A DNA stretch of 64,000 nucleotides from Candidatus Zhuqueibacterota bacterium (GTDB taxonomy: Bacteria; Zhuqueibacterota; Zhuqueibacteria; Zhuqueibacterales; Geothermadaptataceae), in the NCBI GenBank assembly GCA_030950365.1, contig JAUZRQ010000002.1, forward strand, positions 124,001-188,000, in the 5' to 3' direction. The translations under genes were made by a program, and so were the position numbers. Positions 20,837 to 27,331 of the stretch are shown in pieces; the stretch's first letter is position 1, and each line of letters starts with the position of its first letter. Below the pieces are notes generated by a model, which was given only the letters and a program-made list of their open reading frames with translations, was not told the DNA's origin and searched no databases.

Positions 20837-21292
20837 GTGAAATATTCAACCTGGATTTTAATTGCGTTTTTTGCGCTGGGTTGTAATCAAAACGTCGAAC
20901 AGCAGGCAAAGGCATCGCAGCCGCAAACGCTCACAGCGGCTGCAGAAGCCGAAGCAAGCGCCGGCGTGATTGACATCCCCGTTGACCAGGCGCAAGACAT
21001 GATCAAAACGCAAAGCGGCAAGCCGGATTTTATCATCGTTGACGTGCGCACCCCGCGTGAATATGCGGCCGGCCATCTGCCCGGCGCGCAGTTGATGAAT
21101 CTGTTCGATCCCGATTTTCAGCAGAAGCTGCAGCAGCTCGATCGGGATAAAACCTATCTCGTTTATTGCCGTTCCGGCAACCGTAGCGGGCAGGCAATAT
21201 CCATCATGGAAAAGTTGGGCTTCAAAAACGTGTACCACATGTACCAGGGCTTCATGACCTGGGAAGCCAAAGGACTTCCGGTGGAAAAGTAA
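20837..21292 (+). CDS. rhodanese-domain lipoprotein
   Basis: 151 residues. Signal peptide with a lipobox ending FFALGC (Cys about 16), so probably a membrane-anchored periplasmic protein. A single rhodanese domain follows: DVRTPREYAAGHLPGA, then the active-site loop YCRSGNRSG with its persulfide-forming Cys. It transfers sulfane sulfur or acts in a thiol relay. Start is GTG 20837 after GAGGTGG. A clear terminator follows. The next gene is a paralogue with the same order, so the pair arose by tandem duplication. Confidence 0.88.
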   Translation: MKYSTWILIAFFALGCNQNVEQQAKASQPQTLTAAAEAEASAGVIDIPVDQAQDMIKTQSGKPDFIIVDVRTPREYAAGHLPGAQLMNLFDPDFQQKLQQLDRDKTYLVYCRSGNRSGQAISIMEKLGFKNVYHMYQGFMTWEAKGLPVEK

Positions 21293-21525: not shown

Positions 21526-21969
21526 GTGGAGATTGTTGTGTTGCTTTTTCTGCTGGGGATTTTTGCGTCCTTGAACCGTTCATCGGCCGCTGGGTCGGGC
21601 CAGACGCCCCAAAACGGGGATCGCGCCGCTGAAGAACCGGCCGGCATTGTGGACGTGAGCGTGGATGAAGCCTATGCGCTCATTCAGGCGCATCAGGACG
21701 ATCCGGATTTCGTGGTGCTGGATTTGCGAACGCCGCCGGAATATGCGGCCGGTCATTTGCCCAGCGCCGAGCTGCTCAATTTTTACGACCCGCGCTTCAT
21801 TCAAGAAATCCAGCAACTGGATCGCAATAAAACCTACCTGTACTATTGCGCCACCGGGAACCGCAGCAGCTCCGTGACTGAAATCATGCAACACCTGGGC
21901 TTCAAAAAAGCTTACCATGTGTATCAGGGGATTACCACCTGGAGCATGCGCGGCCTGCCAATCGAATAA
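21526..21969 (+). CDS. exported rhodanese-domain protein (paralogue of the upstream lipoprotein)
   Basis: 147 residues from GTG 21526 (GTGAGGTG upstream). The N-terminus is a hydrophobic segment without a lipobox Cys, so it is probably cleaved or stays as a membrane anchor. Rhodanese domain with LRTPPEYAAGHLP and active-site loop YYCATGNRSS; Cys is present, while Arg of the CRSG-type loop is replaced (CATG), which may change substrate preference. It aligns end to end with the preceding rhodanese. It has its own hairpin downstream. Confidence 0.85.
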   Translation: MEIVVLLFLLGIFASLNRSSAAGSGQTPQNGDRAAEEPAGIVDVSVDEAYALIQAHQDDPDFVVLDLRTPPEYAAGHLPSAELLNFYDPRFIQEIQQLDRNKTYLYYCATGNRSSSVTEIMQHLGFKKAYHVYQGITTWSMRGLPIE

Positions 21970-25926: not shown

Positions 25927-26388
25927 ATGAGCTTTTTTGCATCTCAGCCCATTTACCTTGAAGATAAAACGCAAGAAATCGATGGGATTACCATATTTTC
26001 GCTTGAGGATTTGCTGGAAAAGAGTCAGGCATCGGAAGCCTTCAAAGAGGCCGTGCGGCGGTTCCGCGAGGGAGAAAAAAGCGACTTGATCCGCTATTCG
26101 TCCGGATCGCCGCCGGTAAAGGTCATGCGGGTGCTCATGAAACTGCTGGAGGTCCATCCGGAGCTGGCCATTGAGCGTGTGATGATCGAAGCGGTTTCTG
26201 GCTGCTCCACCTACCGTGGGCGAATCAAAGTGGAGCCGCAAAACCGCACGTTTGAATTCATTTGGGACTGCGCCTGGCGGGCGCAGCAAAATCAGGTGAA
26301 AAACGCCTGGGGTTTTCTGGATCAGGCGACGGCGGCGCAACGGTTCGGCTACCAATGTTTTCGGTATTTCAAGGAAGTCGCCGAATAA
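25927..26388 (+). CDS. hypothetical protein, 153 aa
   Basis: Not recognised. A real gene is supported by a good ribosome site (TAGAGGAG, 8 bases before ATG 25927), codon use like its neighbours, and a compact amphipathic sequence. No signal peptide and no transmembrane segment, so probably cytosolic. Features: a helical N-half with many charged residues, VSGCSTYRG near 98, and a Trp/aromatic-rich C-half (FEFIWDCAWRAQ, AAQRFGYQCFRYF). It lies 72 bases after the M1 peptidase and 148 bases before the zf-HC2/MGMT gene. Confidence 0.7.
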   Translation: MSFFASQPIYLEDKTQEIDGITIFSLEDLLEKSQASEAFKEAVRRFREGEKSDLIRYSSGSPPVKVMRVLMKLLEVHPELAIERVMIEAVSGCSTYRGRIKVEPQNRTFEFIWDCAWRAQQNQVKNAWGFLDQATAAQRFGYQCFRYFKEVAE

Positions 26389-26536
26389 ACTCGTTGCAAC
26401 CGTTCGGCGCGGAAGGAGGCGGTGGCTCGCCGGCTGTGGGCCACCGGACGCGCTGACTTCGCGAGGGAAGGGCAAGGATGGCCTGCCCTGCGTGTATGCG
26501 TGGCCAGCGGCGCAGAGCCGCTGTAGGAGGGTAGGC

Positions 26537-27331
26537 ATGGAACTGACCGGTCATTTAACCGAAGATCGGCTCATCGCCTATTTCGCCGGTGAGCTGGATG
26601 TCGATCGCATGCGGCGTATCGAAGCGCATGCAAAAAATTGTCCGCCCTGTAAGCGCGAATTTGTCATCTACCGCACGTTGTTTTCCGGGCTGATTGCCAT
26701 GCTGAAAAAGGGGGACGAGCAAATCACCCCGGCGCGCATCCGCGAGGCCCTGAAAGAAAATCTGAAAAAGAACCAGGTTTTCTATTCGATTCTACACATC
26801 CCGAATTTTGCCTCGGTTCTGGTTGCCAAAACCACCGCAGGGCTCGCCGCCGTTATTATGGGTAAACTCACACAATTCGAGTTTGAGGAAAGGCTGAAGC
26901 GGTATTTCCCAAAGCAATGGATTGTGGAGTCTCTAGATGATACCGAAGAGGCGCGGTTGCAGTTCGAGCAGTATTTTTTTCAAGAACGTACCGTAATTGA
27001 CCTGCCTATCGATCCGGTTCTGATCCGCAGCGAATTTCAAAAACAGGTGCTGCAGGCATTGCGCGACATTCCATATGGCCACTTCATCACATATGGTGCG
27101 CTGGCCAGGCGCATCGGCAAGCCGAAGGCCACGCAGGCGGTAGGTCGGGCGTTGGGGGCTAATCCGCTGCCCATTGTCTATCCGTGTCATCGCGTGGTGG
27201 CGGGCCGCGGTCGGTTGGGCGGCTTTTCCGCTGGAGAGGTATTGAAGCTCAAACTGCTGGAAATCGAAGGCGTGCATTATCCGCACACTAGTCGTCAGTT
27301 GAATTTGTTTGGTTCATTTGGGGAGGGATAA
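26537..27331 (+). CDS. zinc-finger (zf-HC2, anti-sigma type) fused to O6-alkylguanine-DNA alkyltransferase
   Basis: 264 residues from ATG 26537 (GGAGGG upstream). Residues 1-45 look like the anti-sigma zinc finger: His6, then LIAYFAGELD, then His31-x3-Cys35-x2-Cys38. A linker of about 40 residues leads into a full MGMT/Ogt domain: N-terminal ribonuclease-like part (about 80-150), helix-turn-helix with PYGHFITYGALARRIG, and the suicide active site PCHRVV (Cys217) followed by GRLGGFSAGEVLK. It directly repairs O6-methylguanine by accepting the methyl group on Cys217. The N-terminal domain is not the Ada Cys4 zinc domain. The repair function is firm; a regulatory role for the finger is speculative. 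No sigma factor lies next to it. Confidence 0.85.
   Translation: MELTGHLTEDRLIAYFAGELDVDRMRRIEAHAKNCPPCKREFVIYRTLFSGLIAMLKKGDEQITPARIREALKENLKKNQVFYSILHIPNFASVLVAKTTAGLAAVIMGKLTQFEFEERLKRYFPKQWIVESLDDTEEARLQFEQYFFQERTVIDLPIDPVLIRSEFQKQVLQALRDIPYGHFITYGALARRIGKPKATQAVGRALGANPLPIVYPCHRVVAGRGRLGGFSAGEVLKLKLLEIEGVHYPHTSRQLNLFGSFGEG

Follow-up and report, generated by a model that had tools for sequence, protein, structure and literature searches.

A ZAS-type zinc domain, an O6-alkylguanine-DNA alkyltransferase and a clamp-motif tail in one protein of candidate division KSB1

O6-alkylguanine-DNA alkyltransferases of the Ogt/MGMT type, such as the C-terminal part of E. coli Ada (Ada-C, 1sfe) and the M. 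tuberculosis OGT, have two domains, a PCHR site, a helix-turn-helix and invariant Asn, Tyr and Glu residues. The protein described here has all of these and differs by a ZAS domain in front and a QLxLF tail, both absent from the roughly 120 other alkyltransferases compared. Ada also carries a zinc domain on the N-terminal side of its alkyltransferase, and a coupling of sensing to repair is possible in both, but the zinc ligands and profiles are unrelated (HHCC in the ZAS domain of the fusion, Cys4 in Ada-N) and the fusion has no AraC helix-turn-helix. ChrR, the ZAS anti-sigma factor of R. sphaeroides SigE, shares with the fusion the HHCC site, with identical spacing and residue numbers, and the arrangement in which a soluble C-terminal domain comes after the ZAS domain. 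The C-terminal domain of ChrR is a cupin. ChrR has a known sigma partner, whereas the fusion has a DNA repair enzyme as its second domain and lies near no sigma gene.

Two other comparisons are relevant. In Ferroplasma an alkyltransferase is likewise fused to another module, but the partner there is a nuclease, endonuclease V, and no zinc domain or clamp motif is described (PMC10779285). The beta-clamp clients Pol IV/DinB and Pol II have, like the fusion, a flexible C-terminal tail with a short Q-phi-x-L-F motif; these are polymerases, whereas the fusion is a direct reversal enzyme and a candidate client. The initial annotation of this DNA knew of no described example of such a fusion, and this held up in the open-access papers that we searched, where we found neither a zf-HC2-alkyltransferase fusion nor a clamp-binding alkyltransferase.

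Gene architecture and the alkyltransferase domains

The gene lies in a window of 64,000 nucleotides, the whole stretch of DNA that was analysed, and its features are listed in Table 1.

Table 1. Coordinates, in the window, of the fusion gene and its parts
Feature	Position	Strand	Basis or remark
Shine-Dalgarno-like AGGAGGG, 5 bases before the ATG	26525..26531	+	sequence
Whole gene: ZAS zinc domain, O6-alkylguanine-DNA alkyltransferase and clamp-motif tail, 264 aa	26537..27331	+	ORF translation, profiles, alignment, model
ZAS/zf-HC2 domain, residues 1-79	26537..26773	+	profile, alignment, model, structural matches
Alkyltransferase N-terminal ribonuclease-like domain, residues 80-160	26774..27016	+	profile, structural alignment
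Alkyltransferase C-terminal DNA-binding/catalytic domain (PF01035), residues 166-246	27032..27274	+	profile, structural alignment
PCHR active-site motif	27182..27193	+	acceptor C217 at 27185-27187; invariant in 13 homologues
QLNLF, residues 254-258, candidate beta-clamp (DnaN) binding motif in predicted disordered tail	27296..27310	+	

The presence of a zf-HC2-type domain and a complete MGMT in one protein, as first proposed for this gene, was borne out by Pfam. The zf-HC2 profile matches residues 9-38 with 29.2 bits, above the curated cut-off of 22.2, so that the N-terminus does not fall outside this family, and DNA_binding_1, the MGMT C-domain, matches with an E-value of 9e-31. The start of the fusion does not lie further downstream, which would remove the finger, because M1 and H6 are invariant in the 13 homologues. 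The initial annotation was right about the two domains and missed the clamp-binding-type tail.

The alkyltransferase is well supported. Methyltransf_1N is weak in this protein, yet it is matched in all 13 homologues, and the model aligned to Ada-C with a Z-score of 21.5 (2.0 Å over 162 residues), giving the two-domain alkyltransferase fold. Y186, N209, C217, H218 and E244 are invariant in the alignment of 13. At the arginine-finger position the fusion has Q; we rejected this change as a sign of lost function because Q also occupies the position in 14 of 94 stand-alone enzymes. Thus, the protein is very likely an active alkyltransferase.

The genome encodes three members of the alkyltransferase family: the fusion, a protein with a weak AraC-type helix-turn-helix in front and no Ada zinc domain (L198:3607-4455, G000:C6), and an alkyltransferase-like (ATL-type) protein with PWHR in place of PCHR (L063, G000:C102). 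Ada_Zn_binding (PF02805) was not among the Pfam matches of the fusion and had no match in the whole genome of the window. Across the order, the Ada zinc domain was above the cut-off in only 2 of 15 genomes, and the classical Ada sensor is therefore mostly missing from the order that carries the fusion.

A clamp-type motif in the C-terminal tail

The tail, which is predicted to be disordered (pLDDT below 50 in the AlphaFold model), carries a motif of the form Q[LMA]xLF in which Q254, L257 and F258 are invariant in the alignment of 13; the relatives have QLDLF, QMDLF, QLSLF, QMSLF, QMELF or QAELF. According to a 2024 review, the clamp-binding consensus is Q-phi-x-[L/M]-[F/L], with QLxLF as its best form, and it is often found in C-terminal tails (PMC11139829). 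Twelve of the 13 fusions fit this consensus strictly in an accessible tail; the remaining homologue, with QAELF, has at position 2 a small A, which weakens clamp binding (PMC11139829).

All 13 fusions have the strict tail pattern, which none of the roughly 120 other alkyltransferases compared shows. As a background we used the 865 long ORFs of the fetched loci and the window, ten of which had the strict clamp pattern in their last 20 residues: nine belong to the fusion family and one is a DUF72 protein, making a frequency of 1 in about 856 unrelated protein ends, in a modest set drawn from whichever loci had been fetched. This DUF72 protein, the only match from outside the family, ends in QLQLF (L187:5498-6040). 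Among the DinB proteins of the order, each of the 14 closest has Q[LM]xLF towards its C-terminus, and the DinB of the window's genome has QLNLF. Taken together, the tail of the fusion probably binds the clamp (DnaN), although a short motif may also be kept for reasons unrelated to the clamp. A clamp-binding-type tail points to replication rather than transcription.

Other alkyltransferases have ends of related appearance. Stand-alone enzymes of the same order (L077, L078 and L074) finish with QTNLF or QRSLF, which are weaker forms of the clamp motif; judging from these ends, clamp tethering of alkyltransferases may have arisen more than once. Many stand-alone enzymes of Actinomycetota, Sphingobacterium and others (L112-L170) end in -RLF, -TLFD or -ALF, and these could possibly be degenerate clamp motifs without the Gln.

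The zinc domain and its possible partners

The first reading of the sequence had named H-x3-C-x2-C as the zinc ligands. These are present, but the set was incomplete, as a fourth ligand, H6, had been overlooked. The putative ligands H6, H31, C35 and C38 are all invariant in the alignment of 13, and their spacing, H6-X24-H31-X3-C35-X2-C38, is that of ChrR and fits exactly the ZAS motif published as H/C-X24/25-H-X3-C-X2-C (PMC6432622). The zf-HC2 profile matches 11 of the 13 homologues; searched against the whole genome it finds the fusion with an E-value of 5.6e-7, and it recovered the fusion independently in other genomes (G007, G008, G009 and G013 above the cut-off, G011 just below). In profile searches with the ZAS domain, RslA, RsiW, DdvA and ChrR ranked first, ChrR being matched over residues 1-39 in the same register, although weakly (E 0.3).

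In the AlphaFold model the domain has helices at residues 9-16, 22-34, 36-59 and 65-78. A three-helix, zinc-capped core and a fourth helix are present in this model, with residues 2-61 of ChrR aligned at a moderate Z-score. Modelled by itself, the domain was structurally closest to ChrR in complex with SigE (Z 6.9), RslA in complex with SigL (5.3) and the anti-sigma factor that SigK binds in 4nqw (5.1), all of them anti-sigma factors, and the next chain had a Z-score of 3.9; Foldseek with the isolated domain gave no match below an E-value of 0.001. Since the structural Z-scores are moderate, membership of the fold rests on profile, ligands and fold together. The domain is under clear purifying selection, with a dN/dS of about 0.12-0.14 in two pairs (0.131/1.062 and 0.084/0.596). 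We also considered that it might be a recent copy of a local anti-sigma factor. This was rejected because the fusion has HHCC (the ChrR type) whereas Cys is the first ligand (CHCC) in every other ZAS domain of the genome that bears the motif; the best pairwise Z-score by shuffling was about 7. We conclude that the fusion binds zinc with high probability, and we think it fairly likely that its ZAS domain has a specific protein partner.

Thus, the protein has a complete alkyltransferase with its key residues, an HHCC site in an anti-sigma fold and an invariant clamp-type motif, and these have been conserved together over the long term. The best reading, which we hold with some confidence, is that of a clamp-docked suicide alkyltransferase with a ZAS adaptor or sensor module. 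A working suicide O6-alkylguanine-DNA alkyltransferase would dock on the sliding clamp through its C-terminal QLxLF tail, which would let it scan newly replicated or clamp-loaded DNA, and the N-terminal zinc domain would act as a protein-binding adaptor or sensor.

It is also quite possible, although we lean against it, that the ZAS domain has been recruited for a structural role, or for protein binding in general, unconnected with sigma factors, in a protein that is simply a repair enzyme. The genome does use the zf-HC2 module outside sigma control, because a TPR protein with an N-terminal zf-HC2-like domain (L197:3234-4001, G000:C126) has a metallo-beta-lactamase-fold gene beside it and no sigma gene near. 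The context of the fusion agrees with such a role: the neighbours are an amidase-like protein and an M1 aminopeptidase, and within its own family usually a 153-aa protein and an HDOD gene, that is, two enzyme genes and an HDOD gene that are not known alkylation regulators. However, the four invariant ligands and the clear purifying selection suggest a specific task.

Two further features of this neighbourhood were observed. The conserved 153-aa protein is encoded just upstream of the fusion (25927-26388, +), with ORFs of similar size in the same place in G001, G002 and G004 (L184, L190 and L191); it had no Pfam match over the cut-off and no NCBIfam match. Further upstream are two tandem rhodanese-domain proteins (20837-21292 and 21526-21969, +).

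From the fold, the most natural candidate for a ZAS partner is a sigma factor or an RNA polymerase component; the present data single out none, and a sigma factor in that role seems rather unlikely to us. The initial annotation had proposed that alkylation damage might be coupled to the release of an ECF sigma factor or another partner. In its full form, an alkylation-responsive anti-sigma factor would hold an ECF sigma factor through the ZAS domain, and methylation of C217 or of C35/C38 would set it free, so that a repair regulon is turned on. The domain does have the fold and ligand pattern of ZAS anti-sigma factors, its structural neighbours are sigma-bound members of that group, and ChrR combines the same HHCC ligands with a C-terminal soluble domain. 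In addition, the classical Ada zinc sensor is below the cut-off in 13 of the 15 genomes, that of the window included, and one ECF gene of the genome (P0002) has no ZAS neighbour. The closest published link between ECF factors and alkyltransferases that we found is the ECF122 group: these sigma factors lack an anti-sigma factor, and MGMT genes are reported from their conserved neighbourhood (PMC8999054).

The genomic context does not support this coupling. The window's genome has 15 matches to sigma-70 region 2, 12 of them of ECF size, and 11 of these 12 ECF genes have a zf-HC2-type gene of their own just downstream (some matches are weak). In contrast, neither the window nor the flanking DNA fetched from 12 relatives (some contigs are short) gave a sigma gene when searched with the sigma factors of this genome; the co-occurrence expected from the first proposal was not seen, and the fusion does not adjoin an ECF sigma gene as an ECF anti-sigma factor would. 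The orphan ECF P0002 (L196:5684-6268, G000:C43) is present in 72 of 81 genomes of the phylum, with 48-66% identity outside the genus. It is a candidate for a phylum-wide housekeeping ECF, and we rejected it as the specific partner because it extends far beyond the fusion; being phylum-wide, it gives no signal of co-distribution. Neither was an ECF-like -35 motif shared or conserved upstream of the fusion genes, and the HHCC site sets the fusion apart from the CHCC of the genome's other ZAS domains recovered by motif. Because no sigma gene is nearby, the orphan ECF is phylum-wide and no -35 motif is shared, we do not assign the name anti-sigma factor, and we regard such a function as unlikely.

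A combination of the two ideas, in which a clamp-riding protein would repair O6-alkylguanine once and its ZAS domain would report this to the transcription machinery by releasing a sigma factor encoded elsewhere, in an Ada-like adaptive response that joins an anti-sigma factor to the replisome, appears improbable. Still more doubtful is that the zinc thiolates themselves accept alkyl groups, as in the N-terminal domain of Ada, which would add a second activity, in repair or in sensing. Thiolates that coordinate zinc are reactive, and at the ChrR site they are quickly attacked by singlet oxygen (PMC6432622). The Ada N-domain is also missing from most genomes of the order; however, the site of the fusion is Cys2His2 rather than Ada's Cys4, there is no match to Ada_Zn_binding, and binding to DNA phosphate has no support.

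Distribution, descent and meaning of the fusion

The search for zf-HC2 and MGMT fusions elsewhere, suggested when the gene was first described, recovered the full-length protein in 13 of the 15 genomes of the order (candidate division KSB1); the two genomes without it are 67% and 78% complete. The relatives are 36-84% identical to the window protein, the gene order around the fusion is common to them, and the fusions' alkyltransferase domains group in a single clade (support 99/92), present in 100% of 200 bootstrap trees. No fusion was found in the phylum outside the order (82 genomes searched in all). In a scan of 84,980 species with strict patterns, no fusion was among the best 80 matches listed beyond two KSB1 records, and two other phyla gave no fusion matches at a strict cut-off, in a search without a positive control. 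A Cupriavidus plasmid match with 88% cover has no ZAS motif.

The conservation, the single clade and the dN/dS values therefore indicate an old, selected and vertically inherited architecture and not an artefact. A chance ORF, frameshift or misassembly joining two genes is refuted by conservation, since 13 genomes share the architecture at identities as low as 36% and within a single clade, and can be set aside. The combination of ZAS domain, alkyltransferase and tail in one order of KSB1 is a real domain architecture, apparently not described before.

With a tail that binds DnaN, the fusion would be a case of direct-reversal repair in bacteria by an enzyme attached to the sliding clamp, and would offer a concrete test of whether O6-alkylguanine is repaired at the fork. 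Should the ZAS domain bind a sigma factor, the fusion would represent a second, unrelated solution to the task of Ada. Both ideas are open to test, on a protein that is small (264 residues) and soluble.
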